From positions 1 through 53,617 of the forward strand of contig JAJXUD010000028.1 in assembly GCA_021783235.1 (NCBI GenBank): 53,617 nt of DNA, written 5' to 3'. The notes beneath the pieces were generated by a model, which did not search any database, was not told where the DNA came from, and saw only the letters and a program-made list of their open reading frames with translations. The position numbers were made by a program, and so were the translations under genes. The stretch comes from Myxococcales bacterium. Lineage in GTDB: Bacteria > Myxococcota > Myxococcia > Myxococcales > JAKAPL01. How positions within the stretch are numbered: the stretch's first letter is position 1; every line of letters starts with the position of its first letter. This document shows, piece after piece, positions 9,428 to 51,846 of the stretch.

Positions 9428-9856
9428 GTGGGATTTCACTTCGCGAACGTCCTCGTCTTCGCGGGCGCGGCGATCGGCTTCTGCCTCGGCAACCTGCTCA
9501 TCGGCTCGTTGCTCCGGCCCTACTTTCCGAGCCACGAGAAGTCGCTGATCTACGAGTGCGGCGAGCTTCCGGTCGGCGAGGCCTGGTTCAATTTCAACCC
9601 CCGCTTCTACGTCATCGCCTTGATCTTCGTCATCTTCGAGGTCGAGATTGCGCTGATGCTCCCGGTGGCGCTGGTCTACCGGGCCTGGGTGACGGGCAAG
9701 GGCGGCGGCCTCGCCTTCGCCGAGCTGCTCACCTTCACGATCATCCTGCTGGTCGGCCTCGTCTGGGCCTGGGCCCACGGCGACCTCGAGTGGATCAAGC
9801 GGATCGCCCCCGAAAAGAGCGCGCCGGCCACCCCTGCACCGGCGGCGCAGGGCTAG
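9428..9856 (+). CDS. nuoA: NADH-quinone oxidoreductase subunit A
   Basis: This 142-residue membrane subunit of complex I has three transmembrane helices and the diagnostic loop SLIYECGELPVGEAWFNFNPRFY between helices 1 and 2, whose conserved Cys lines the quinone-site region. Helix 2 ends FVIFEVEIALMLP, typical of NuoA. The C-terminal tail is Ala/Pro-rich and probably disordered. It starts with GTG, 8 nt after a GGAGG ribosome-binding site. It is the first gene of the operon. Confidence 0.96.
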   Translation: MGFHFANVLVFAGAAIGFCLGNLLIGSLLRPYFPSHEKSLIYECGELPVGEAWFNFNPRFYVIALIFVIFEVEIALMLPVALVYRAWVTGKGGGLAFAELLTFTIILLVGLVWAWAHGDLEWIKRIAPEKSAPATPAPAAQG

Positions 9857-9868
9857 CGGAGAGCCACC

Positions 9869-10423
9869 ATGCCGAACGACTACGCACACGACCCCGGCGC
9901 CGGCGCGACGGTCCTGACGACGCAGACGAGCATCGTCGAGAACGTCCTGAACCTCGCGCGCAAGAGCTCGGTCTGGTTTCTCCTCTTCGGCCTCGCCTGC
10001 TGCGGCATCGAGCTGATGCAGACCGGCGGCCCGCGCGCCGACCTCGACCGCTTCGGCTCGGTGCCGCGCGCCACCCCGCGCCAGAGCGACCTGATGATCG
10101 TCGCCGGCACGCTCACCTACAAGATGGCGATCCGCTGCCGGCTGCTCTACCAGCAGATGCCGGAGCCCAAGTACGTCCTCTCGATGGGCTCCTGTGCCAC
10201 CTGCGGCGGCCTCTTCCAGTACAGCTACTCGGTCGTGAAGGGGGTCGACAAGATCATCCCCGTCGACGTCTACGTGCCGGGTTGCCCGCCGCGCCCCGAG
10301 GCGCTCACCGAGGGCTTCATGCGGATCCAGGACCTCATGATGCGCGAGCGCTGGAAGGCCAAGATGCGGCCGCGCACCGAGAAGAGGCTCGGCGTGCAGT
10401 ACCAGGTCCCCGAGACGGTCTGA
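9869..10423 (+). CDS. nuoB: NADH-quinone oxidoreductase subunit B
   Basis: This 184-residue protein is the complex I subunit that carries cluster N2, the last iron-sulfur centre before quinone. The four ligands are visible: the tandem cysteines in [11 protein letters not shown], then the cysteines in [18 protein letters not shown] and [11 protein letters not shown]. It sits in the peripheral arm next to NuoD and NuoI. It follows nuoA by 12 nt with a GGAGAG ribosome-binding site. Confidence 0.97.
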
Positions 10424-10435
10424 GCGAGGCGTTCG

Positions 10436-11065
10436 ATGACCCTTTCCCCGGAAGAGATCCACGCGAAGGCCAAGGCGGCGTTCGGCGAAGCCGTCGGCGA
10501 GCTGCAGCCGCCCGCGAAGGACGCCTTCTTCACCGTGACGCCCGCGAAGATCCGCGAGGTCTGCGCCTTCCTGAAGGAAGATCCTTCGCTCGCCTTCGAC
10601 TTCCTCGAGGACGTGACGGCCACCGACCACCACCCGAAGGAGCCGCTGATCCGGCTGGTCTACCACCTCTTCAGCTACCGGCACCGGCACGGCATCGTGG
10701 TGAAGGCCGAGCTGCCGCGGGACGGGGCGTCGCTTCCGTCGCTCGATCCCGTCTGGAAGGCGGCCAACTGGCTCGAGCGCGAGGTCTACGACCTCTTCGG
10801 CGTCGCCTTCGAGGGACACCCGGACCTGCGCCGGATCATGATGCCGGACGACTGGGTGGGCCACCCGCTCCGCAAGGATTACCAGGAGGCGGGCGGCTAC
10901 TTCGACATCACGAACGTCCGCGACAGCGCGCTCGTCGAGTTCCGCCGCATGGACGAGGCGGTCAGGGCGGCCGCCGAGAAGTCCGCGGCCACGAACGCCA
11001 CCCCGGCCACTCCGGCCACCGCCCCCGCCGCCCCCGCACCCGCCGGCGGCGCGCAGGTCCACTGA
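10436..11065 (+). CDS. nuoC: NADH-quinone oxidoreductase subunit C
   Basis: This 209-residue protein is the 30-kDa complex I subunit that packs against NuoD. The family signature appears as [24 protein letters not shown], followed by [13 protein letters not shown]. The last 45 residues are an Ala/Pro/Thr-rich tail beyond the usual end of the family. It is separate from NuoD, unlike the NuoCD fusion of E. coli. Confidence 0.96.
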
Positions 11066-11074
11066 GAGGCTGCG

Positions 11075-12223
11075 ATGGACGAGCTCGTCATCCAGAAACT
11101 CGGGCCGCTCTCCGACGAGGAGATGGTCCTCAACATGGGGCCGCAGCACCCCTCCACCCACGGCGTCATCCGCTTCGTCGTCAAGGGCGACGGCGAGGTC
11201 ATCAAGGTGGCCCTGCCGGTGGTCGGCTACCTGCACCGAGCCATCGAGAAGATCGGCGAGATCGTCACCTTCCCTGGCTTCATGCCCTACACCGACCGGG
11301 CCGACTACCTCGCCGCGATGTTCGCGAACGAGGGCTACGCGCTCGCCGTCGAGAAGCTGATGGGCCTCGAGGCGCCGCCGCGCGCCCAGTACTGCCGCGC
11401 CATCTCCTGCGAGCTCAACCGGATCGCGAGCCACCTCATCTCGGTCGGCACCATGGGACAGGACATCGGCGCGCTGACGCCCTTCGTCCACGCGCTGCGC
11501 GAGCGCGAGACCCTGAACGACCTGATCGAGGAGCTCTGCGGGGCGCGCCTCACCTACCACTACCACCGGATCGGCGGCGTGGCCTTCGACGTGCCGGACG
11601 GCTGGGCCGAGAAGACGCTCCGCTTCCTCGATCGCTTCGAGCGGATCCTCGACGAGTACGACCGGCTGCTCACCTGGAACGAGATCTACGTCAAGCGGCT
11701 CGCGGACCTCGGGGTCATCCCGGCGGAGATGGCCATCGACTACGGCCTCGTCGGCCCGAACCTGCGCGCCTCGGGCGTCGACTGGGACCTGCGGCGCGAT
11801 CTCCCCTACGGCTGCTACCGGGACTTTCAGTTCCAGGTGCCGGTCGGCAAGGGCTGGGTCGGCAAGGTCGGCGACTGCTTCGACCGCTACTACGTCCGCA
11901 TCCTCGAGATGCGCGAGAGCGTGAAGATCGTCCGCCAGGCCCTCGAGAAGCTGCCGGCCGGCGAGACGATGCACCCGAAGATCCCGAAGAAGGTGAAGCC
12001 GCCCGCCGGCGAGGCCTGGGCGCGGGTGGAGAGCGCCCGCGGCGAGATGGGCTACTACGTCACCGCGGACGGCGTCTCCGAGAAGGCCCAGCGCGTCCGC
12101 ATCCGCACGGGATCGTACCTCGCCATGGGCGTGGTCGAGCCGCTCTCGCGCGGCATGATGATCGCGGACCTCGTGGCCCTCATCGCGTCGCTCGACGTCG
12201 TCGCCCCCGAGATCGACCGGTAA
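11075..12223 (+). CDS. nuoD: NADH-quinone oxidoreductase subunit D
   Basis: This 382-residue protein is the 49-kDa subunit that forms the quinone cavity with NuoB. Recognisable segments are [16 protein letters not shown] near the N-terminus (whose His lines the quinone site), [39 protein letters not shown] and the end [11 protein letters not shown]. It descends from the large subunit of NiFe hydrogenases but lacks the nickel ligands, as expected. The length is close to the family norm. Confidence 0.97.
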
Positions 12224-12232
12224 GGAGCGAGA

Positions 12233-13486
12233 ATGCAAACCGCCGCCGACCAGCTCATCCGCTCCCTCTTCCACCAGGACCCCGGCAGCTGGCCCTGGAC
12301 ACAGCTCGTCTACCTCGCGTTCATGCTCGCCGCCGGCATGATCATGACCACCTTCGCGGCGGTCTTCTCGGGCACCCTCTCCTGGTACGAACGGCGCGTC
12401 GCCGCCCGCATGCAGAGCCGCATCGGCCCGAACCGCGTGGGACCGGCCGGCTTCCTCGTCTGGGTGGCCGACGCCTTGAAGCTCATCACGAAGGAGGACG
12501 TCATCCCCGCCGACGCGGACCCGATCCTCTTCCGGATGGGGCCCTACTTCGTCGTGACCGGGCTCGTCCTCACCTTCGTCGCCCTCCCCTTCGGCGACCG
12601 GATCATCGCGGCCGACATGAACCTCGGCCTCTTCTACATCCTCTCCATCACCGCGCTCGTCGTCGTGGGCATCATCATGAGCGCCTGGTCGTCGAACTCG
12701 AAGTGGTCGCTCATCGGCGGCATCCGCTCGGCGGCGCAGGTCATCAGCTACGAGATCCCGGCCGGCCTCGCGGTGATGGTGCCGGTGCTGCTCGCGGGCT
12801 CCCTCTCCACGCAGGGGATCATCCGAGCCCAGGGCGGACCCGCGGGCGGCTCGTTCTTCGAGATCGGCGGCTGGCCCTGGAACTGGTTCCTCTTCGAGAA
12901 CCCGATGGCCTTCGCGGCCTTCTTCATCTTCTTCACCGCGGCGCTGGCCGAGGGGAACCGGACGCCGTTCGACCTGCCCGAGGCCGAGAGCGAGCTCGTG
13001 GCCGGCTACAACACCGAGTACTCGGGGATGCGCTTCTCCTACTTCTTCCTCACCGAGTGGGCGAACGTCTGGGTGATGAGCGCGCTCGGCACCCTGCTCT
13101 TCCTCGGCGGCTGGCAGATCCCGGGGGTCGCCTCCGAGGCGGTCGACCACTCGGGCTGGCTCGTCGTGGCCTCGGTGCTCGTCTTCGTCGTGAAGACGCT
13201 CGCGCTCGTCAACGTCGTCGTCTGGCTGCGCTGGACCCTGCCGCGCATCCGCGTCGACCAGATGATGATCCTCTGTTGGAAGTACCTCGTGCCCGTCGCG
13301 ATGGGCTGCGTCCTCCTCACGGCCGGCTGGATCTGGGGCGAGAGCGTCGTCCCCGTCTCGGTGATCTCGGGCTTCCACCTCGCCTTCTTCCTCGTCGCGG
13401 GGATCGTGCCCCTGGTCCTCTTCGTGCGGCAGACGTTCCAGAACCTCAGGCTGGTCGGCGACCGCGTCGACCTGACGAACTGGTAA
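12233..13486 (+). CDS. nuoH: NADH-quinone oxidoreductase subunit H
   Basis: This 417-residue membrane subunit of complex I has eight or nine helices and connects the peripheral and membrane arms at the quinone entrance. Signatures are YERRVAARMQSRIGPNRVGP, LQ-type loop DALKLITKEDVIPADAD, SSNSKWSLIGGIRSAAQVISYEIP and AEGNRTPFDLPEAESELVAGYNTEYSGMRF. It is somewhat longer than E. coli NuoH (325), mainly from an insert around residues 195-225 (LSTQGIIRAQGGPAGGSFFEIGGWP) and a longer N-terminus. Confidence 0.97.
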   Translation: MQTAADQLIRSLFHQDPGSWPWTQLVYLAFMLAAGMIMTTFAAVFSGTLSWYERRVAARMQSRIGPNRVGPAGFLVWVADALKLITKEDVIPADADPILFRMGPYFVVTGLVLTFVALPFGDRIIAADMNLGLFYILSITALVVVGIIMSAWSSNSKWSLIGGIRSAAQVISYEIPAGLAVMVPVLLAGSLSTQGIIRAQGGPAGGSFFEIGGWPWNWFLFENPMAFAAFFIFFTAALAEGNRTPFDLPEAESELVAGYNTEYSGMRFSYFFLTEWANVWVMSALGTLLFLGGWQIPGVASEAVDHSGWLVVASVLVFVVKTLALVNVVVWLRWTLPRIRVDQMMILCWKYLVPVAMGCVLLTAGWIWGESVVPVSVISGFHLAFFLVAGIVPLVLFVRQTFQNLRLVGDRVDLTNW

Positions 13487-13490
13487 AGCG

Positions 13491-13814
13491 ATGACCGAAT
13501 CGATCGAGCAGCAGCTGCGAGCGACCACCGCCCAGGAGCGGTTCGATTCCATCCCCGACCGAGCCCCGGCAAACGAACGCTCCTCCTCGCGCCGTCTGGC
13601 CGGGAGCGTCATCTGCCTGACGGCGTCCGGGGCGGCCGAGATGTTGTCTCTCTGCTTCCCGGCGCACCCTTGGGTGGTGTTCTCCGCAGGATCCATTCTG
13701 ATCGGGACGGTTCTGGCCCAGCCCAAATCGGATCGTCTTTGGGCCACCGTCTCGTGGCTTCTCTCCTTCGCAACCTTCTGGGCATGCAGCCGCTTGCTCG
13801 GCACGGGGCACTGA
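13491..13814 (+). CDS. Orphan small membrane protein inside the nuo operon
   Basis: I do not recognise this 107-residue protein. Residues 1-35 are hydrophilic (MTESIEQQLRATTAQERFD). Three predicted transmembrane helices follow, around GSVICLTASGAAEMLSLCF, WVVFSAGSILIGTVLA and WATVSWLLSFATFWACSRLL. It starts 4 nt after the nuoH stop and ends 19 nt before nuoI, so it must be co-transcribed. Codon use seems less GC3-biased than in its neighbours. No complex I subunit is normally encoded here; it may be an accessory or assembly factor, or an insertion. Confidence 0.75.
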   Translation: MTESIEQQLRATTAQERFDSIPDRAPANERSSSRRLAGSVICLTASGAAEMLSLCFPAHPWVVFSAGSILIGTVLAQPKSDRLWATVSWLLSFATFWACSRLLGTGH

Positions 13815-13833: not shown

Positions 13834-14730
13834 ATGGCCATCGAGTACGTCGAGAACATCAAGGGCACCGTCGGAAGCTTCTGGCACGGCATGAGCATCA
13901 CGCTCAGCCACCTCTTCCGCCGGCCGGACACGCTGCAGTACCCCGACACCCGGGCGCCGCTGCGCGACACGCTGCCGTCGCGCTACCGCGGCTTCCTCGA
14001 GGTGGACATCGACATCTGCACCGGCTGCCTCGCCTGCGAGAAGGCCTGCCCCATCGGCTGCATCAAGATCCAGGTGGAGAAGGACCCGAACAACCCGAAG
14101 CAGCGCTACATGACGCAGTTCGACCTCGACGAGGCGAAGTGCATGTTCTGCGGCATGTGCGTCGAGCCGTGCCCCACCGGCGCCATCCAGCACACCCGCG
14201 AGTTCGAAGGCTCGGTCATCGACCTTCGCAACCTCACCTTCCGCTGGGTCGATCCCGCGAAGCCGTCGCCGCTCTACAAGGTGCCGAAGGGCACCCAGGC
14301 CTACCTGCGAAAGCCGCTCGGTTCGCTCGTGCGGACCAAGATCAAGGCCTGGGACGACCCGGGACCGGCCTGGCTGCCGCCCGCCCGGGAGGGGACCGCC
14401 GCCCCGGCGACGAAGAAGGCGGTGGGGGCCGCCAACGCGCAGGCGGTCGAGCAGGCGAAGAAGGCGATCGGCGCCGACGCGAAGAGGCTCACCGTGATCC
14501 TCGAGGAGACTCAGGCGGGCACCGATTGCGGCGAGTGCACCTACCCGACCTGCCACGACTACTCGGTGGCGATGGCGAGCGGCAAAGAGGCACGGACGAA
14601 CCTCTGCAGCCCGGGCGGCGCCGAGACGCACGCCGCGACCGATCTCATCATGCTGACCTTCAAGACGGGCGCGGTGCCCGCTGGCGGCGCCCCCGCCCCC
14701 ACGGCCGCCGGGGAGCCCCCCAAGGCCTGA
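13834..14730 (+). CDS. nuoI: NADH-quinone oxidoreductase subunit I with extra C-terminal Fe-S domain
   Basis: This 298-residue protein combines a normal NuoI with an unusual extension. Residues 1 to about 190 match NuoI: two ferredoxin-type [4Fe-4S] motifs with C62, C65, C68, C72 and C103, C106, C109, C113 (ICTGCLACEKACP and CMFCGMCVEPCP), holding clusters N6a and N6b. After an Ala/Lys-rich linker, residues 213-265 hold a further cysteine set, C232-x2-C235-x4-C240-x17-C258, in the context DCGECTYPTC and LCSPGG. This is the pattern of the small four-cysteine Fe-S domain of RnfB and of corrinoid Fe-S proteins (Pfam FeS, PF04060). Standard NuoI ends at about 160-190 residues, so an additional [4Fe-4S] cluster is inferred. 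Confidence 0.93.
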   Translation: MAIEYVENIKGTVGSFWHGMSITLSHLFRRPDTLQYPDTRAPLRDTLPSRYRGFLEVDIDICTGCLACEKACPIGCIKIQVEKDPNNPKQRYMTQFDLDEAKCMFCGMCVEPCPTGAIQHTREFEGSVIDLRNLTFRWVDPAKPSPLYKVPKGTQAYLRKPLGSLVRTKIKAWDDPGPAWLPPAREGTAAPATKKAVGAANAQAVEQAKKAIGADAKRLTVILEETQAGTDCGECTYPTCHDYSVAMASGKEARTNLCSPGGAETHAATDLIMLTFKTGAVPAGGAPAPTAAGEPPKA

Positions 14731-14743
14731 CGAGGTGACGAGA

Positions 14744-15502
14744 ATGGCGCAAGCAGACAGGCGCGGCTCGGCCGCGCAGAAGATCCTCATCGGCCTCGCC
14801 CTGCTCTCGGCGCTGGGCCTCGCGGCGGTCATCGTCGGCCGCATCCTGATCGGCGGCATGCCCGCCGAGGGGTTGCCGGCCGAGCAGCGGACCGGCCTCC
14901 TCTTTCAGGTCGGCCGCCTCTTCGAGCTCGGGCAGCCCTCGGACTTCCTCTGGTACGGGCTCGCCCTCCTGACCCTCGGCTCGGCCGCCGGCGTCGCCTT
15001 CTCGCGCAACATCATCTACTCGGCCTTCTCCCTGCTCGGCGCCTTCCTGGGGGTCGCCGCGATGTACGTCTACCTGGGCGCCCCGTTCCTCGCGGTGACG
15101 CAGGTCCTCATCTACATCGGCGGCGTCCTCGTCCTGATCCTCTTCGCGGTCATGCTCACCTCGCACATCCGCGACGTGAAGGTGACGAACAGCGCGCTCG
15201 GCCTCGGGCCGGGCGCGGTCGTGCTCCTCGCCTGCCTGGGGCTGCTGACCGTCGTCGCCGGCGGTACCCCCTGGAAGCAGCTGCCCGCGGCCCCGCTCAC
15301 CGACCGGACCGCCGACATCGGCACGGCCTTCCTGTCGACCTACCTCCTCCCCTTCGAGATCGCCTCCGTCATCCTGCTCGCCACGCTCATCGGCGCGATC
15401 GTCATCGCCCGCAAGGACGACCCGGCGGATGCCGGGGGGCCGCCCTCGCCGGCCGACGGGCAAAGGACGCGGGCCGAAGCCCCCTCACAGGAGACTCGCT
15501 AG
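14744..15502 (+). CDS. nuoJ: NADH-quinone oxidoreductase subunit J
   Basis: This 252-residue membrane subunit of complex I has five to six helices. The core GSAAGVAFSRNIIYSAFSLLGAFLGVAAMYVYLGAPFLAVTQVLIYIGGVLVLILFAVMLT is typical NuoJ, including the pi-bulge helix region VQ.LVY.G...VL. The N-terminus carries an additional helix of about 60 residues. The ATG at 14744 is preferred over the GTG at 14735, because the GTG lies inside the ribosome-binding site GAGGTG. Its stop abuts the nuoK start. Confidence 0.94.
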   Translation: MAQADRRGSAAQKILIGLALLSALGLAAVIVGRILIGGMPAEGLPAEQRTGLLFQVGRLFELGQPSDFLWYGLALLTLGSAAGVAFSRNIIYSAFSLLGAFLGVAAMYVYLGAPFLAVTQVLIYIGGVLVLILFAVMLTSHIRDVKVTNSALGLGPGAVVLLACLGLLTVVAGGTPWKQLPAAPLTDRTADIGTAFLSTYLLPFEIASVILLATLIGAIVIARKDDPADAGGPPSPADGQRTRAEAPSQETR

Positions 15503-15814
15503 ATGCTCCACGTCGGCCTCGCCCACTTCCTCGTCGTCGCGGCGGCGCTCTTCTCGCTCGGGGCCTTCTGCGTCATCACCCGCAAGAACGCCGTCGGCAT
15601 CCTGATGGGCATCGAGCTCATCCTGAACGCCGCGAACATCAACTTCGTCGCCTTCGAGCACTACTCGGCCGGCGGCCTCCATGGGCAGGTCTTCGCCCTC
15701 TTCGTCATCGTGCTCGCCGCGGCCGAAGCGGCGATCGGCCTCGCCATCGTGCTCGCCCTCTTCCACGCCCTGCGCTCCATCGACGTCACGCGGGCGGCAG
15801 AGCTCAAGGAGTAG
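15503..15814 (+). CDS. nuoK: NADH-quinone oxidoreductase subunit K
   Basis: This 103-residue complex I subunit has three helices. The proton-path glutamates are in place: GILMGIELILNAANINFVAF (Glu of helix 2) and VIVLAAAEAAIGLAIVLALF (Glu of helix 3). The length equals the family norm. Its ATG follows the nuoJ TAG directly, without an intervening base, so translation is probably coupled. Confidence 0.97.
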   Translation: MLHVGLAHFLVVAAALFSLGAFCVITRKNAVGILMGIELILNAANINFVAFEHYSAGGLHGQVFALFVIVLAAAEAAIGLAIVLALFHALRSIDVTRAAELKE

Positions 15815-15817
15815 CGC

Positions 15818-18316
15818 ATGCCCCTCTTCCACGCGATCCAGGCGGCGCTGCTCGGTGGGGGACCGCCGCCGGGCACGATCCTCGCGGAGGGCGTCCGCGA
15901 GGCGACCCGGGTCGAGCTCTCGTGGCTCTGGCTCGTCCCCTTCTTCCCGCTCGTCGGCTCCTTCGTCAACGTGACGATCGGCAAGCGGCTGCAGGACCGC
16001 TTCGGCAAGGCCGTGAACCACGGCATCGCGGTCGGCGCCATGCTGCTCTCGACCGCCCTCGCCTGGGTCGCGTTCGCGCGGCTGCTCGCGCTGCCGGCCG
16101 AGGGGCGCTACCTGCACGACCTCTGCTGGAACATGTTCACGGTCGGCAGCCTGCGCGTCGACCTTTCCTTCGGCCTCGACCCGCTCTCGACGATGATGAC
16201 CCTCATCGTCACCAACGTGGCGACTCTGATCCACGTCTTCAGCATCGGCTACATGGCGGACGAGCCGGCCTACTGGCGCTTCTTCGCCTACCTGAACCTC
16301 TTCGTCTTCTCGATGTTGCTGCTCGTCATGGGCGACAACTTCGTCGTCATGTTCTTCGGCTGGGAGGGCGTCGGCCTCTGCAGCTACCTGCTCATCAGCT
16401 TCTGGTACACCGACGTCGAGAAGGCGAAGGCCGGCATGAAGGCCTTCGTGGTCAACCGCTTCGGCGACTTCGCCTTCATCACCGGCCTCTTCGCGCTCCT
16501 CTGGGGGCTCGGCGGCGCCTGGGGCCCCGCCTCGCGCAGCGAGCTGGGCGTGCGCGACGACTACCGACCGTCGGCCGCCTACCAGCCGTTCCACGCGGGC
16601 GGCGACGCCGCGGAGAGTCTCGCGGCCACCCCGCGCGCGGGCGGGATGCCGGTCGGCCCGACCGTCGACTTCCGCGAGCTGCGCGACGAGCTGCTCGATC
16701 CGTCGACCGGCGTGATGCACCACCTGACGACGACCACGATCTTCGGCTTCCCCTTGCTCGCCTTCGTCTGCATCCTCTTCTTCGTCGGCGCCACCGGCAA
16801 GAGCGCGCAGATCCCGCTCTACGTCTGGCTCCCGGACGCCATGGCCGGCCCGACGCCGGTCTCGGCCCTCATCCACGCGGCGACGATGGTGACGGCCGGC
16901 GTCTACATGGTGACGCGGCTCAACTTCCTCTTCTCGCTCTCCGCCGCCGCCATGACGGTGGTCGCCTGCACCGGGGCGCTGACCGCCATCTTCGCGGCCT
17001 CGATCGGCCTCTTCCAGGTCGACATCAAGAAGGTGCTCGCCTATTCGACGGTGAGCCAGCTCGGCTTCATGTTCCTCGGCGTCGGCGTCGGCGCCTACTG
17101 GGCCGGCTGCTACCATCTGCTCACCCACGCCTTCTTCAAGGCCTGCCTCTTCCTCGGATCGGGCAGCGTCATCCTCGCCTGCCACCACGAGCAGGACATG
17201 CGGAAGATGGGCGGCCTCAAGGAGTACACGCCCATCACCCGCTGGACGTACGCGCTCGCCTGCATCGCCATCTCCGGCTTCCCGGTGATGAGCGGCTTCT
17301 ACTCGAAGGACGAGATCCTCTGGAAGGCGTTCACCACGCAGAACCTCGTCGCGCCCTGGATCGGCCCCCTGCTCTGGGCGGTCGGCCTCGTGGCCGCCGG
17401 CGGCACCTCGTTCTACATGTGGCGCTCGTACTACCTCACCTTCTGGAGCGGGCGGTACCGGGGCGGCCCGGGCCACGACGATCACGGCGCCCACGCCGCG
17501 CCGGCCCTCGCGACCCACAGCCTCGGCGCGGCGCACGCGGGCAGCTTCGGCGCCGACGTGGCGCACGCCGCGGGCCACTCCGCCGCGGCCGCGCCGGGCG
17601 AGGCGGCGGACGGGAGCGGCCACGGCCACGGCCACGGCCACGGCGATCCGCACGGCCACCACGGCGGGCTCCCGCAGGAGTCGCCCGCGGTGATGACCTA
17701 CGTCCTCATCGCGCTGGCGGCGGCGGCCTTCTTCGCGAGCTTCCTCGGCCTGCCGAAGTCGTGGGTGGGCTCGGATCCGCTCCTCGAGCGGTTCCTCGAG
17801 CCGGTCCTCGCCGGCTCGAACGCGCGGCTGCGGTTCGCCGAGCCGGGCGGCGGGCTCGAGACCCTCTTCATGCTCATCTCGGTCGGCGTCGCCACGGCCG
17901 GCTGGCTCGCCGCCCGCTGGATGTACGTCACGGGCGAGAACCCGGCCCCCGCGCGGCTGATGGCCTCCTTCCCGGGCGTCCACCGGCTGGTCTTCAACAA
18001 GTACTACGTGGACGAGATCTACCGGGCGACGGTGGTGCGGGCCGGGCTCGTCCTCGCCGCGGTCTTCTCCTGGTTCGACCGAGTGGTCATCGACGGCCTC
18101 GTGACCCTGGTCGCCTGGATCGTCCGCCTCGTCGCGAACGTGGACGGCTTCATCGACAAGTACCTCGTCGACGGGGCCGTGAGCCTGGTCGCGGCCCTCG
18201 TCCTCGCCGGCGGCCGCCGGCTGCGCCGCCTCCAGACCGGACGGCTCGAGAACTACCTGATGGGCGCGCTCGCCGGCGCCCTGGTCTTCGTCGCCGTCAA
18301 CTACCTGGTCCACTGA
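15818..18316 (+). CDS. nuoL: NADH-quinone oxidoreductase subunit L with His-rich insert
   Basis: This is the largest antiporter-like subunit of complex I, 832 residues against about 610-660 in most bacteria. Conserved parts include NFVVMFFGWEGVGLCSYLLI, KSAQIPLYVWLPDAMAGPTPVSALIHAATMVTAGVYM, KKVLAYSTVSQLGFMF and the C-terminal lateral amphipathic helix region. Two insertions explain the length: about 65 residues around positions 235-300 between helices, and a His/Gly/Ala-rich loop at about 552-617 (repeated GH pairs encoded by GGCCAC hexamers) that could bind metal ions. Otherwise it is expected to be a normal proton-pumping subunit. Confidence 0.96.
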   Translation: MPLFHAIQAALLGGGPPPGTILAEGVREATRVELSWLWLVPFFPLVGSFVNVTIGKRLQDRFGKAVNHGIAVGAMLLSTALAWVAFARLLALPAEGRYLHDLCWNMFTVGSLRVDLSFGLDPLSTMMTLIVTNVATLIHVFSIGYMADEPAYWRFFAYLNLFVFSMLLLVMGDNFVVMFFGWEGVGLCSYLLISFWYTDVEKAKAGMKAFVVNRFGDFAFITGLFALLWGLGGAWGPASRSELGVRDDYRPSAAYQPFHAGGDAAESLAATPRAGGMPVGPTVDFRELRDELLDPSTGVMHHLTTTTIFGFPLLAFVCILFFVGATGKSAQIPLYVWLPDAMAGPTPVSALIHAATMVTAGVYMVTRLNFLFSLSAAAMTVVACTGALTAIFAASIGLFQVDIKKVLAYSTVSQLGFMFLGVGVGAYWAGCYHLLTHAFFKACLFLGSGSVILACHHEQDMRKMGGLKEYTPITRWTYALACIAISGFPVMSGFYSKDEILWKAFTTQNLVAPWIGPLLWAVGLVAAGGTSFYMWRSYYLTFWSGRYRGGPGHDDHGAHAAPALATHSLGAAHAGSFGADVAHAAGHSAAAAPGEAADGSGHGHGHGHGDPHGHHGGLPQESPAVMTYVLIALAAAAFFASFLGLPKSWVGSDPLLERFLEPVLAGSNARLRFAEPGGGLETLFMLISVGVATAGWLAARWMYVTGENPAPARLMASFPGVHRLVFNKYYVDEIYRATVVRAGLVLAAVFSWFDRVVIDGLVTLVAWIVRLVANVDGFIDKYLVDGAVSLVAALVLAGGRRLRRLQTGRLENYLMGALAGALVFVAVNYLVH

Positions 18317-18345
18317 GCAGGAACAGCCGCCTTTCGGAGAACGAG

Positions 18346-19977
18346 ATGGACGCCATCCAGACCCACCTTCTCAGCTACATGATCTTTTCGCCGCTCGCCG
18401 GCGCGACGGGCATCCTGCTCGTCCTCGCGCTGCGGCGGCTCATCGGCTTCCCCCAGGAGCAGGTCGACCGGGCGGCCCGGATGCTGGCCCTCGTCTTCAG
18501 CGCCATCCCGCTCGCCCTCGGCCTCTGGCTCTGGGCGCGCTTCGACGGCGGCGCCATCGGCCCCCAGTTCGTCGAGCACGCGGTCTGGATCCGCTCCTTC
18601 GGCATCGAGTACTTCATCGGGGCCGACGGCCTCTCGGTGGCGATGATCATCCTCTCGTCGCTGATCTCGTTCATCGCGACGATCGCCTCGATGCCCTGGT
18701 TCATCCACGACGACGAGCACGGCCACGGTCCCGTCCACTTCTCGAAGCGGATGGTGCCGGGCTACCTCTCGCTCCTCCTGCTCCTCGAGGCGGCGATGGT
18801 CGGCGTCTTCGCCTCGCTCGACTTCTTCCTCTTCTACGTCTTCTGGGAGCTGATGCTGCTCCCCATGTACTTCCTCATCGGCATCTGGGGCGGCCCGCGC
18901 AAGGAGTACGCGGCCATCAAGTTCTTCCTCTACACGCTCGCGGGCTCGGTCCTCATGCTGCTCGCGCTCATCGGCCTCTACTACGCCTCGACGCCGATGC
19001 CGAACGTGCCGCTGCGGCTCGTCGACGGAACGCCCCTGCAGCACACGTTCAACATGCTCTCGCTCGCCCAGCTCGGCGCCCACCACCTCTGGGAGCACCA
19101 GGCGCCCCTGCTCGGCCTCTCCTTCGCTCGGGTCGTCTGGATCGGCCTCTTCATCGGCTTCGCCATCAAGATCCCGATGTTCCCCTTCCACACCTGGCTC
19201 CCCGACGCCCACGTCGAGGCGCCGACGCCCATCTCGGTCATCCTGGCCGGCGTGCTCCTCAAGATGGGCGGGTACGGAATCCTGCGGGTGAACTTCGGCA
19301 TCCTGCCGGAGGCGACCCGCTACTTCGCCGACGCACTCGCGATCTTCGGCACCATCAACATCGTCTACGGCGCCTTCGTCTGCCTCGCGCAGAAGGACCT
19401 CAAGAAGCTCATCGCCTACTCGTCGGTCTCGCACATGGGCTTCGTGCTGCTCGGCATGGCCGCGCTGACCCCGCAGGCGCTCTCCGGGGCGATGCTCCAG
19501 ATGTGGACCCACGGCATCGTCAGCGCGATGCTCTTCCTCATCGTCGGCGTCATCTACGACCGGGCGCACCACCGCGAGATCGAGGGCTTCGGCGGCCTCG
19601 CCGCGCGGCTGCCCGAGTACACGGCGCTCATGGGGCTCGCCTTCTTCGCCTCGATGGGCCTGCCCGGGCTCTGCGGCTTCATCTCCGAGTTCATGGTCTT
19701 CCAGGGCGCGTTCCCGGTCTACCGGACGCTCACCATCGTCTCGGCCACCTCGGTCATCCTGACGGCCTCCTACTATCTCTGGACCATCCAGCGGATGTTC
19801 CTCGGCAAGCTCAACGAGAAGTACAAGGAGCTCCCCGACGTGAACTGGCGCGAGCGGCTGACGCTCTACCCGCTCGGCGCGCTCGCCATCTTCTTCGGCT
19901 TCTATCCCCAGGCGATCCTCGGCACCTTCAACCGGGCGCTCGAGGCGATGAGCCACACGCTGATGGGGCGGTTCTAG
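18346..19977 (+). CDS. nuoM: NADH-quinone oxidoreductase subunit M
   Basis: This 543-residue antiporter-like membrane subunit of complex I has about 14 helices. Signatures are DFFLFYVFWELMLLPMYFLIGIWGG (helix 5 Glu), KIPMFPFHTWLPDAHVEAPTPISVILAGVLLKMGGYG, KKLIAYSSVSHMGFVLLG and GLPGLCGFISEFMVF. The ATG at 18346 begins MDAIQTHLLSYMIFSPLAGA, matching the first helix. It follows nuoL by 29 nt. Confidence 0.96.
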   Translation: MDAIQTHLLSYMIFSPLAGATGILLVLALRRLIGFPQEQVDRAARMLALVFSAIPLALGLWLWARFDGGAIGPQFVEHAVWIRSFGIEYFIGADGLSVAMIILSSLISFIATIASMPWFIHDDEHGHGPVHFSKRMVPGYLSLLLLLEAAMVGVFASLDFFLFYVFWELMLLPMYFLIGIWGGPRKEYAAIKFFLYTLAGSVLMLLALIGLYYASTPMPNVPLRLVDGTPLQHTFNMLSLAQLGAHHLWEHQAPLLGLSFARVVWIGLFIGFAIKIPMFPFHTWLPDAHVEAPTPISVILAGVLLKMGGYGILRVNFGILPEATRYFADALAIFGTINIVYGAFVCLAQKDLKKLIAYSSVSHMGFVLLGMAALTPQALSGAMLQMWTHGIVSAMLFLIVGVIYDRAHHREIEGFGGLAARLPEYTALMGLAFFASMGLPGLCGFISEFMVFQGAFPVYRTLTIVSATSVILTASYYLWTIQRMFLGKLNEKYKELPDVNWRERLTLYPLGALAIFFGFYPQAILGTFNRALEAMSHTLMGRF

Positions 19978-19995: not shown

Positions 19996-21537
19996 ATGAA
20001 CCCGCTCGCCAACGCGCAGAACCTGGCCTCGCTGGCCTACTTCGGGCCCGAGACCGTCCTCACGGTCGGGGTTCTCTCCCTCTTTGTGCTCGACCTCGTC
20101 TGGAAGCGCCACCCGAAGCGGGTGGTGCCGCTGACCGCGGCGATGGCGGTCGTCCTCCTGGCCAGCGCGGTGGCGCTCGCGATCAGCCCGCTTCAGCCGG
20201 TGGCGCTCTTCAACCGGATGATCGTCTCGGACGGCCTCGGGACCTTCTTCAAGTGGATCTTCCTCGCCACCGCCGCCTACACCGCCGGGATCGTCGCTCA
20301 CTCCGACGAGATCCCGAGCGAGCGGCTCGGGGAGTTCTACGCCCTGCTGCTCGCCATCCTCCTCGGCATGGACCTGATGGCGGTCTCGAGCGACCTCCTC
20401 ATGGTCTATCTCTCGCTCGAGCTCGTCTCGATGGTGAGCTACGCCCTCGCCGGCTTCCGCAAGCACGACAGCCGCTCGACCGAGGCGGCGCTGAAGTACG
20501 TCATCTACGGCGGCGTCGCCTCCGGCATCATGCTCTTCGGCATCAGCTACCTCTATGGCCTCTTCGGCACCACCGACCTGATGCTCCTCGCGCCGAAGGT
20601 GCGCGCCTTCTCGGGCGGCCTCTTCCTGCAGACGACGCTCGGGCAGAGCCCGGCGGCGCAGCTCGCCATGGTCGTGGCGGTCGTCTTCGTCCTCGCGGGC
20701 GTCGGCTTCAAGATGGCGGTGGCCCCCTGGCACATGTGGTGCCCCGACGTCTACGAGGGCGCCCCGACCCCGTTCACCGCCTTCTTGTCGGTCGGCCCCA
20801 AGGCGGCGGGCTTCGCGGTGGCGGTCCGCTTCTTCGGCGTCGCCTTCACCGAGCTGCGCGGCGATGCCTTCGTCAACACGACCACCGTCCCGTGGCCGGC
20901 CATCCTCGGGATCCTGGCGGCGGTGACGATGACCCTCGGGAACCTGACGGCCCTCGGCCAGACGAACCTGAAGCGGCTGCTCGCCTACAGCTCCATCGCC
21001 CACGCGGGCTACCTGCTCATGGGGCTCGCCGCCGCCTCCGTCCTCGGCTTCCAGGCGGTCCTCGCCTACCTGGCCATCTACCTCTTCATGAACCTGGGCG
21101 CCTTCCTCGTCGTCACGGCGATCGCCCAGCGGACGGGCGGCGAGACCATCGCGGAGTACCGCGGGCTCATCAAGCGGGCCCCCTTCACCGCCATCGCCTT
21201 CACGATCTTCCTCTTCTCGCTCACGGGACTGCCGCCGCTCGCCGGCTTCACCGGCAAGTACCTCCTCTTCGCGGCGCTGCTCGAGCGGGGCGGCGGCTGG
21301 TACGTGGCGCTCGCCGTGGTGGGCGCGATCAACAGCGCCATCTCGCTCTACTACTACGCCCGAGTCGTCAAGGCGATGGTGCTCGACAAGCCCGTGACCG
21401 AGGCGAAGGTCGCGATGCCCGGGACCTACGGCTTCTTGATGCTGGGTTCGGTGGCCGCCCTGTTTCTCTTCGGCCTCTACTGGACGCCGCTCTACACGGT
21501 GACCCAGGCCGCCACCCGCTCGATGCTGCGGCAGTAG
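19996..21537 (+). CDS. nuoN: NADH-quinone oxidoreductase subunit N
   Basis: This 513-residue third antiporter-like subunit of complex I closes the operon. Conserved parts are DLLMVYLSLELVSMVSYALAGF (helix 5 Glu), GVGFKMAVAPWHMWCPDVYEGAPTPFTAFLSVGPKAAGF, LKRLLAYSSIAHAGYLLMG and SLTGLPPLAGFTGKYLLF. There is a small insert (LLQTTLGQSPAAQ) not seen in E. coli. No clear intrinsic terminator follows, only a 75-bp gap to the Rrf2 gene. Confidence 0.96.
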   Translation: MNPLANAQNLASLAYFGPETVLTVGVLSLFVLDLVWKRHPKRVVPLTAAMAVVLLASAVALAISPLQPVALFNRMIVSDGLGTFFKWIFLATAAYTAGIVAHSDEIPSERLGEFYALLLAILLGMDLMAVSSDLLMVYLSLELVSMVSYALAGFRKHDSRSTEAALKYVIYGGVASGIMLFGISYLYGLFGTTDLMLLAPKVRAFSGGLFLQTTLGQSPAAQLAMVVAVVFVLAGVGFKMAVAPWHMWCPDVYEGAPTPFTAFLSVGPKAAGFAVAVRFFGVAFTELRGDAFVNTTTVPWPAILGILAAVTMTLGNLTALGQTNLKRLLAYSSIAHAGYLLMGLAAASVLGFQAVLAYLAIYLFMNLGAFLVVTAIAQRTGGETIAEYRGLIKRAPFTAIAFTIFLFSLTGLPPLAGFTGKYLLFAALLERGGGWYVALAVVGAINSAISLYYYARVVKAMVLDKPVTEAKVAMPGTYGFLMLGSVAALFLFGLYWTPLYTVTQAATRSMLRQ

Positions 21538-21612: not shown

Positions 21613-22089
21613 GTGCAGCACACCCTCCAGATCTCTCGCAAGATCGACTACGGCCTGCGGGCGGCGATCTACCTCGCCTCCGTGGCCCAAGGGTCGGTCG
21701 TCCCGTTTCGGGAGGTCGCGAAGCTCATGAACATTCCTCAGGATTTTCTCGCGAAGATCCTGAAGACTCTCGTCGACGCGGGGCTCGTGAGCTCGGTGCG
21801 CGGCGCCCGCGGCGGCTACGCGCTGGCCCGCCCCCCGGCCGAGATCTCGTTCCTCGACGTCATCGAGGCGGTGGAAGGCCCGATCCAGGTCAACGTCTGC
21901 CTCGCCGAGGAGGGCCGGGACGCCTGCGGCCTCTCCCCCGCCTGCACCATGTACGCGATCTGGAAGGAGGGGCAGGACCGGATGATCGAGGTCTACCGAG
22001 CCACCCGCCTCGACCGGCTCGCGATGAAGAGCGCGCAGGAGCCGTCGCTCCAGCCGCTCCACCTCCCCGAGACCCCGCGACCCGCATGA
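21613..22089 (+). CDS. Rrf2 family transcriptional regulator, probably Fe-S binding
   Basis: This 158-residue protein has the Rrf2 winged helix: LQISRKIDYGLRAAIYLA, VPFREVAKLMNIPQDFLAKILKTLVDAGLVSSVRGARGGYALARP. After the dimerisation helix there are three cysteines, C96-x8-C105-x5-C111, in the place where IscR and NsrR hold an iron-sulfur cluster (usually C-x5-C-x5-C). A cluster-sensing role for redox, nitric oxide or iron-sulfur status is therefore likely. It lies directly after the nuo operon and overlaps the next gene by ATGA. Rrf2 members often control neighbouring genes, so the membrane protein or nuo could be targets. Confidence 0.9.
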   Translation: MQHTLQISRKIDYGLRAAIYLASVAQGSVVPFREVAKLMNIPQDFLAKILKTLVDAGLVSSVRGARGGYALARPPAEISFLDVIEAVEGPIQVNVCLAEEGRDACGLSPACTMYAIWKEGQDRMIEVYRATRLDRLAMKSAQEPSLQPLHLPETPRPA

Positions 22090-49857: not shown

Positions 49858-50613
49858 GTGCCCGAGACCAAGCATCGCGAGCTCATTCGACCCTACGGCG
49901 ACCGGCGAGACGACGGCGTCGTCCAACTCTCCTTCGCCCTCCCCGTGCCGCCCTCCGAGAAGGCCAAGGAGGCGGCCGTCCTCTTGATGAAGAAGCTCGG
50001 CTTCCAGCAGGCGCTCGTCGCGACGATGGAGCCCTGCGGCGAGGGCTTCAGCTTCTTCGTCGCCTACGGCCGCACCCACGCGGCGGTGGACTTCGCCGCC
50101 ATCGAGGTGCCCGAAGTGGTGGTCCGAAAGCTCTCCTTCGACGACCTCAACGCCGCCATCGAGCGCGAACTCGGCCGCAAGATCGTCGTGGTCGGCGCCT
50201 GCACCGGCTCCGACACCCACGCCGTCGGCATCGACGCCATCATGAACATGAAGGGCTTCGCGGGCGACTACGGGCTCGAGCGATACCCCGGCTTCGAGGC
50301 GCACAACCTCGGCAGCCAGGTCGAGAACGAGGTCCTGCTCCAGAAGGCGAAGGAGTGGAACGCCGACGCCGTCCTGATCTCCCAGGTCGTCACCCAGCGC
50401 GACCTCCACAAGGAGAACGCGCGGCAACTCATCGACCTCGCGAAGGCCCACGGGCTCCACGGCAAGACCGTCCTCGTCCTCGGCGGCCCACGCATCGACC
50501 ACAAGCTCGCGCTCGAGCTCGGCTTCGACGCCGGCTTCGGCCCCGGCACGAAGGCCTCGGACGTCGCGAACTACCTCTTCGCCCGGATCACCCAGAAGAA
50601 GGAGGCGGCATGA
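49858..50613 (+). CDS. kamE: Beta-lysine/D-lysine 5,6-aminomutase, B12-binding beta subunit
   Basis: This 251-residue subunit binds adenosylcobalamin and PLP in the radical 1,2-amino shift of lysine fermentation. The cobalamin motif DTHAVG contains H121, and K132 lies 11 residues later in MNMKG. In the Clostridium enzyme the cobalt ligand His133 and the PLP lysine Lys144 are also 11 apart, so both functions are conserved. The large catalytic subunit KamD, normally encoded directly upstream, is not here; the upstream gene is amgK on the other strand. It overlaps kal by ATGA. Confidence 0.92.
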
Positions 50614-50999
50614 AAGCCAGCCTGCGGATTCGCATGAGCTCTCACGACGCCCACTACGGCGGCGAGCTCGTCGACGGTGCCCGATTGCTCGGCCTCTTCG
50701 GCGACGTCGCCACCGAGCTCTGCATCCGGCGCGACGGCGACGAGGGGCTCTTCCGCGCCTACGAGAGCATCGAGTTTCTCGCCCCCGTCCACGCGGGCGA
50801 CTACCTCGAGGTCGAGGGCGAGATCGTCTCGGAGGGGAAGACCTCCCGGAAGATGCGCTTCACCGCGCGCAAGGTGATCAGCCCCGCCGGCGCACCGAAC
50901 GCCCCATCGGCCTGCGACGTCCTGCCCGCGCCCGTGGAGGTCTGCCGCGCGGTGGGCACCTGCGTCGTCCCCGCGGCGCTGCAGAGGGCAACCAGGTGA
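50610..50999 (+). CDS. kal: 3-aminobutyryl-CoA ammonia-lyase (hotdog fold)
   Basis: This 129-residue single hotdog-domain protein ([20 protein letters not shown]-type start, then [29 protein letters not shown]) matches Kal. Kal removes ammonia from L-3-aminobutyryl-CoA to give crotonyl-CoA in lysine fermentation. Identification relies on the fold and on its place between kamE and kce. Its start overlaps the kamE stop. Confidence 0.88.
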
Positions 51000-51012
51000 C
51001 GCGGAGGCCGAC

Positions 51013-51846
51013 GTGAGCGAGCCGGCCATCGTCACCGCGTGCCTCGTCGGCGCCGAGGTCAGCCGCGAGCAGACGCCCTACCTTCCCATCACCGCCGACG
51101 AGATCGCGGCCGAGGCCGCCGCCTGCCGGAAGGCCGGCGCGGCCATGGTCCACCTCCACGTCCGCGAGCCCGACGGCAAGCCCTCGCAGTCGGCCGAGCT
51201 CTTCGCCGCCGCCATCCGCGAGATCCGGCGGCGCACCGACGTGATCGTCCAGGTCTCCACCGGCGGCGCCGTGGGCATGGGCGTCGACGAGCGCTGCGGG
51301 CCGCTCACCCTGCGCGGCGAGCTGCGCCCCGAGATGGCGACCCTCACCACCGGGACCGTCAACTTCGGCGACGACGTCTTCTCGAATCCCCGCCCGCTCA
51401 TCCGCGACATCGCCCGCCGCATCCGGGAGTGCGGCGCCGTCCCCGAGATCGAGTGCTTCGACGCTGGCATGGTCGACGAGGCCCGCGCGCTCGCAGGGGA
51501 GGGACTCCTCGCCCTCCCGGCCCACTTCGACTTCGTCCTCGGCGTCCCCGGCGCCCTCGCCGCCACCCCCGAGGCCGTCCGCTTCCTCGTCTCCCGCCTC
51601 CCCGAGGGCTGCAGCTGGACGGTCGCCGCCATGGGTCGCCACGAGCTCCCCTTCGCGAAGCTCGCCCTCGAGCTCGGAGGCAACGCCCGCGTCGGCCTCG
51701 AGGACAACATCTACCTGTCGAAGGGCGTGCTCGCGAAGGGCAGCCACGAGCTCGTCGCGAAGGTGGCCGAGGTCGCGAAGGAGCTCGGGCGCCCCCTCGC
51801 CACGCCCGACGAAGCGCGCCAGCGGCTCCGGATTCCAGCGCTCTAG
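51013..51846 (+). CDS. kce: 3-keto-5-aminohexanoate cleavage enzyme (BKACE family)
   Basis: This 277-residue TIM-barrel enzyme cleaves 3-keto-5-aminohexanoate with acetyl-CoA into 3-aminobutyryl-CoA and acetoacetate. The zinc ligands are H47 and H49 in MVHLHVREPDGKPS, with the later glutamate in VGLEDNIYLSKGVLA. Other family phrases are STGGAVGMGVDERCGPL and PEIECFDAGMV. It starts with GTG 13 nt after kal. kdd, which makes its substrate, is not next to it. Confidence 0.92.
   Translation: MSEPAIVTACLVGAEVSREQTPYLPITADEIAAEAAACRKAGAAMVHLHVREPDGKPSQSAELFAAAIREIRRRTDVIVQVSTGGAVGMGVDERCGPLTLRGELRPEMATLTTGTVNFGDDVFSNPRPLIRDIARRIRECGAVPEIECFDAGMVDEARALAGEGLLALPAHFDFVLGVPGALAATPEAVRFLVSRLPEGCSWTVAAMGRHELPFAKLALELGGNARVGLEDNIYLSKGVLAKGSHELVAKVAEVAKELGRPLATPDEARQRLRIPAL

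Follow-up and report, generated by a model that had tools for sequence, protein, structure and literature searches.

The FeS domain of RnfB carries a single [4Fe-4S] cluster and is flexibly tethered and very mobile; this domain (FdI/B8) has been proposed to act as an electron shuttle by swinging between the ferredoxin core and RnfA/E, and its cysteines have been mutated to probe the electron pathway (PMC9588780; PMC11889175). How electrons enter bacterial complex I-like enzymes devoid of an NADH module is a long-standing question, for which candidates have come from co-expression only; in the best-studied 11-subunit enzyme ferredoxin has been proposed as the electron carrier, the donor being unproven (PMC11238625). 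Cyanobacterial NDH-1 is likewise devoid of the EFG subunits; in it, ferredoxin docks in a positively charged NdhI/NdhH pocket and reduces N6a (PMC7021789). In this work we analysed a stretch of 53,617 nucleotides from a Myxococcales bacterium (the window), in which a nuo operon encodes a NuoI protein with a C-terminal domain of the RnfB type. Open reading frames and Pfam matches give the gene order nuoA-B-C-D-H-I-J-K-L-M-N between positions 9428 and 21537.

9428..9856, + strand: nuoA, open reading frame of 142 aa, Pfam PF00507 (E 2.2e-27)
9869..10423, + strand: nuoB, 184 aa, PF01058 (E 5.5e-28)
10436..11065, + strand: nuoC, 209 aa, PF00329 (E 1.5e-45)
11075..12223, + strand: nuoD, 382 aa, PF00346 (E 5.3e-87)
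12233..13486, + strand: nuoH, open reading frame of 417 aa, used as a query and 52-62% conserved in the operons of relatives
13834..14730, + strand: nuoI, 298 aa in one open reading frame, with N6a/N6b ferredoxin core, linker, FeS domain and tail
14735..15502, + strand: nuoJ, 255 aa, PF00499 (E 2.1e-36)
15503..15814, + strand: nuoK, open reading frame of 103 aa, kept in the operons of relatives
15818..18316, + strand: nuoL, open reading frame of 832 aa, from comparison with the operons of relatives
18350..19977, + strand: nuoM, start approximate, in a frame inside the open reading frame that ends at 19977, from tblastn to the operons of relatives
19996..21537, + strand: nuoN, open reading frame of 513 aa, from comparison with the operons of relatives

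Neither open reading frames nor Pfam profiles revealed nuoE, nuoF or nuoG in this operon, which is of the 11-subunit complex I type, without the NADH module, and is not accompanied by any linked gene for a ferredoxin or another donor. NuoB has all four cysteines (C44, C45, C109 and C139) that we take, from knowledge of complex I, to be the ligands of N2. Inspection of NuoD found the quinone-site motifs GPQHPSTHG and PYTDRxDY, and cysteines at positions 107, 112, 155, 247 and 268, without the [NiFe] CxxC pairs at both ends, a pattern that would suit quinone and not H2 at this site. The gap between nuoH and nuoI holds a 107-codon open reading frame (13491-13814) that has hydrophobic stretches and matches no Pfam family. 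Directly downstream of nuoN lies a gene of the Rrf2 family, a family of Fe-S regulators (21613-22089), and such a gene also adjoins nuo genes at three other loci (L039, L042 and L050). Elsewhere in the window, region 49858-51846 recalls lysine fermentation: it encodes a BKACE beta-keto acid cleavage enzyme and the small subunit of a B12-dependent aminomutase (OAM_dimer plus B12-binding).

The cysteines of NuoI are at positions 62, 65, 68, 72, 76, 103, 106, 109, 113, 232, 235, 240 and 258, and are distributed over two of the three parts of the gene listed here.

14017..14172, + strand: canonical motifs C62-C65-C68-C72 and C103-C106-C109-C113 (N6a and N6b), Fer4 PF00037 (E 2.1e-11) and Fer4_7 (E 2e-9)
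14374..14472, + strand: linker, residues 181-213, fast evolving in the amino-acid comparison of the family
14467..14640, + strand: RnfB-type FeS domain, residues 212-269, with C232, C235, C240 and C258 as [4Fe-4S] ligands predicted from PF04060 and alignments

The protein is a divergent NuoI: it has two CxxCxxCxxxCP motifs, it matches the NuoI profile TIGR01971 (E 2.2e-28; 98.3 bits, where the cut-off is 113), and its gene is flanked by nuoH and nuoJ. A preliminary description of this sequence had noted the additional motif C232-x2-C235-x4-C240-x17-C258 followed by SPGG and had proposed an RnfB-like FeS domain at the C-terminus. The motif is indeed present within 14467-14640 (codons of C232 and C258 at 14527-14529 and 14605-14607), and the proposal is upheld by three kinds of match. 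Residues 229-259 match Pfam FeS PF04060 above its curated cut-off of 23 (30.6 bits, E 2.7e-7; 35 bits for the isolated FeS segment). The NCBIfam rnfB profile TIGR01944 reaches 54.9 bits, with residues 200-268 as the best stretch; this is, as expected, below the whole-protein cut-off of 68.7 for that model. Finally, a profile of the FeS domain matches the RnfB chains 8ahx_B (E 2.7e-6) and 7zc6_B (E 3.5e-6) in the PDB, and more weakly the corrinoid iron-sulfur protein 4djd_C (E 0.12). These matches confirm, at the level of sequence, a bona fide PF04060/RnfB-type FeS domain, which would bind one [4Fe-4S] cluster. A chance arrangement of cysteines is ruled out by the profile scores and by conservation, and a fused or misassembled open reading frame is ruled out by the single high-GC3 frame and by the occurrence of the same fusion in 20 proteins from independent assemblies.

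The rest of the genome was examined family by family with profile and family searches. NuoF is present in a single copy in the whole genome, on contig C2 within nuoE-F-J-K-L-M-N, while nuoG-H-I of this second set are on contig C126 and nuoA-B-C-D on contig C122. The genome therefore also encodes a 14-subunit NADH-type complex I that is separate and apparently complete, with its own divergent NuoA-D, NuoH, NuoI and NuoJ-N; its NuoI is ordinary, and the FeS fusion is restricted in this genome to the NuoI of the 11-subunit complex. The family search found no other PF04060 protein, hence no second protein with an RnfB domain and no RnfB. The genome encodes two 2-oxoacid oxidoreductases of the POR_N family, which typically reduces ferredoxin, and a source of reduced ferredoxin is thus plausible. 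Two further loci were seen in the surveyed genomes: a group-4-hydrogenase/Mbh-like cluster whose parts resemble NuoD, NuoI and NuoB, those like NuoI and NuoB being fused in a 284-aa open reading frame (L055, G000:C3, about 17557-18634), and a polyferredoxin of 161 aa that has four Fe-S motifs and is encoded beside a c-type cytochrome gene (L140, G000:C13:12049-12438).

The fusion recurs among relatives. In 195 genomes of the phylum, searched with NuoI and with the FeS-domain profile, and across all GTDB species, scanned with the single peptide pattern TDCG[DEA]C[GTE]Y, we found 20 distinct NuoI proteins with the FeS domain, from Myxococcota-type genomes; incomplete MAG contigs may conceal a few more, and as the scan beyond the phylum consisted of one pattern, we do not assert that Myxococcota alone have the fusion. 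The sources are the window's own family (f1, 3/3 genomes), families f2, f4, f6, f12 and f29, Polyangiaceae records and one 'Proteobacteria' MAG. Each of the 20 has a PF04060 match. Six of them, from families f2 and f4 (L014, L015, L016, L017, L019 and L024), carry a tandem pair of FeS domains about 75 residues apart, in which all eight cysteines are conserved. The four cysteines, the PGG and the motif A-x-TDCG-x-C-x-Y are invariant in 26/26 aligned domains, and the linkers are unalignable across these proteins. A further, divergent case (L124 / L098, G165:C383) has a linker of about 200 residues before an FeS domain with CEGFCGYPSC, and in its first ferredoxin motif, CIGDLQCQRVC, the second cysteine is replaced by Asp. 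Three hits of the motif scan (L079-L081) proved not to be NuoI, and distant domain matches in G008, G157, G164, G188 and G193 belong not to NuoI but to sensor proteins that are RnfB-like or hydrogenase-like.

The complete operons retrieved that encode such a NuoI (L042, L043, L044, L045, L049 and others) all have the composition nuoABCDHIJKLMN, and none of them contains nuoEFG or a linked ferredoxin or donor gene. NuoF-type genes are present in 18 of the 19 genomes tested, always on contigs other than that of the fused nuoI. This agrees with a second complex I like the one found alongside the window's operon, although EFG might be shared between complexes in those genomes. In some genomes nuoI is split from the nuo operon and keeps the FeS domain: it lies alone among ABC-transporter genes and others in G057 (L040), beside mscL in G058 (L039), and next to dapA at the Polyangiaceae loci L070, L071 and L074. 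Other close relatives have the same operon type and a NuoI without the domain, with short or Ala/Pro-rich tails (family f3, G107, G156, G163, G192 and others); in family f3, presumably Anaeromyxobacter-like, the domain profile found no FeS domain on NuoI in any of 24 genomes.

The three members of the window's family share 88-92% of amino acids in the NuoI core and 76-87% in the FeS domain; for the linker the figure is 45-73%, and for the tail 57-70%. In NG86 estimates from these three members, and thus from few sites, dN/dS ranges from 0.12 to 0.37 in the FeS domain and from 0.30 to 0.65 in the linker. The order is nonetheless evident: the FeS domain is under purifying selection and the linker is not constrained. 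A quick IQ-TREE phylogeny of the NuoI core (188 columns) has several weakly supported branches, and long ones join at its root; in it, the 58 Myxococcota NuoI of the 11-subunit type are split from standard NuoI by a strongly supported branch, and the presence of the domain requires at least seven changes within this clade. All NuoI FeS domains have a TDCG motif, where RnfB has NCGxC or QCGxC, and the shared A-x-TDCG suggests one origin of the fusion followed by repeated loss.

The reading that we favour, with moderate confidence, is that of an 11-subunit proton pump without NADH module, in which the tethered single-[4Fe-4S] domain of NuoI, of the RnfB FdI/B8 type, would shuttle electrons from ferredoxin to N6a. 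The FeS domain would receive electrons from a soluble carrier in its reduced state, most likely ferredoxin supplied by 2-oxoacid:ferredoxin oxidoreductases; swinging on its linker like the mobile FdI/B8 domain of RnfB, this domain would pass them to N6a of the same NuoI, and from there they would flow through N6b and N2 to quinone, driving proton pumping. In relatives with two domains, these could form a two-step relay or two docking arms. The cluster, its mobility, the donor and the direction of electron flow are what we infer here. The linker between core and domain has about 32-51 residues across relatives and is mostly neutral to basic. The FeS domains are all acidic (-3 to -10 over 55 residues, -3 being reached by 28% of control windows), to be set beside the positively charged pocket at which ferredoxin docks on NDH-1; this is a weak argument for the mechanism because the lineages are related. 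This reading bears on two other claims of the preliminary description. The domain had been thought to add a tenth-type cluster, but in the absence of nuoE, nuoF and nuoG from the operon clusters N1a, N1b, N3, N4, N5 and N7 are missing, and the FeS domain would provide a fourth cluster, after N6a, N6b and N2, at what is probably the sole entry point of the complex. The suggested entry from ferredoxin stands as the best hypothesis, but probably as the main route and not as an alternative to NADH. The missing NADH module, the second complete complex I and the tandem domains of relatives are additions to that description.

Many close relatives have an NADH-less complex without the domain, which is therefore inessential for electron input to such enzymes. 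These complexes do work, so direct reduction of N6a is possible, and the FeS domain could be a docking or specificity arm for a donor (ferredoxin, oxidoreductase or hydrogenase), with a cluster that is mainly structural and a donor that itself reduces N6a. Such an arm would have a parallel in the cluster-less small subunits NdhV and NdhO, through which cyanobacterial NDH-1 docks ferredoxin (PMC7021789). Nevertheless, elsewhere this type of domain is an electron carrier, and the four ligands are invariant where the surface residues vary, so that we regard a docking arm as rather unlikely. The patchy occurrence of the domain, with its seven changes on the tree, and the Rrf2-type gene directly downstream (21613-22089) would also suit a redox or oxygen sensor, an acidic tail whose labile cluster blocks or frees the N6a pocket and thereby regulates the complex. 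However, PF04060 is not known to act as a sensor on its own, and a relay explains the tandem duplication at least equally well; regulation of this kind appears distinctly improbable.

It could also be supposed that the window's complex is completed by NuoEFG taken from the other complex I, the FeS domain bridging or supplementing the chain from N5 to N6a, since genes for NuoE, NuoF and NuoG exist elsewhere in the genome and NuoF in 18/19 genomes with the fusion. In the window's genome, however, those genes accompany a complete and divergent set of their own (NuoA-D, NuoH, NuoI and NuoJ-N), and NuoEFG genes never share a contig with the operon of the fused NuoI, which makes borrowing very doubtful. 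As for a neutral fusion without function, the domain is lost or missing in several lineages, but its cysteines are invariant across families and it is under purifying selection; this idea is largely refuted and we give it almost no credence. Electron transfer from ferredoxin to N6a through the tethered domain remains the reading that we prefer. Its extension to the lineage is more tentative, a possibility that we rate almost as readily wrong as right: a variant of complex I in which one or two tethered RnfB-type [4Fe-4S] domains take the place of the NADH module and act as an internal ferredoxin, so that the enzyme would be a dedicated ferredoxin:quinone oxidoreductase with swinging-arm entry.

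The open-access literature searched gave no account of a NuoI that carries an FeS domain, and what appears to be new is the lineage-wide combination of an enzyme type and a domain that are each known already. If the proposal is true, tethered swinging-arm electron entry, so far described for Rnf/Nqr, extends to complex I. With an electron-carrier domain fused to NuoI, where the entry cluster itself resides, the entry point would be named and four cysteines are available to probe it; close relatives without the FeS domain and others with two are natural controls. The best-studied 11-subunit enzyme has the same nuoABCDHIJKLMN without EFG as the window, but its NuoI is not described with an extra FeS domain (PMC11238625). 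Cyanobacterial and chloroplast NDH-1 likewise lacks the NADH module and has the chain Fd-N6a-N6b-N2-quinone; there, cluster-less oxygenic-photosynthesis subunits dock a free [2Fe-2S] ferredoxin, and there is no tethered FeS domain (PMC7021789). NuoI of family f3 has a core 62-70% identical to that of the window and is encoded in the same operon, but has an Ala/Pro-rich tail in place of the linker and FeS domain. The large subunit of the corrinoid iron-sulfur protein (PDB 4djd, 9fzy) has an N-terminal [4Fe-4S] domain of the same type, but this protein reduces corrinoid cobalt and is unrelated to complex I. The FeS domain of RnfB (FdI/B8; PDB 7zc6 and 8ahx, and the Rnf complex of A. woodii) is of the same domain family, with CxxCx4C...C-x-PGG in about 55 residues, and in both proteins the domain is attached, flexibly in RnfB and presumably so in NuoI, to a 2x[4Fe-4S] ferredoxin core. 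NuoI with this domain connects the Rnf parts list with that of complex I, but the two proteins differ in order and context: RnfB has a membrane helix, then the FeS domain, then the ferredoxin core, and is encoded with rnfACDGE, whereas the window NuoI, flanked by nuoA-N genes, has the ferredoxin core first, the FeS domain last and no membrane helix; and the RnfB domain sends electrons out of RnfB into RnfA/E, whereas its NuoI version belongs to a presumably quinone-reducing proton pump.
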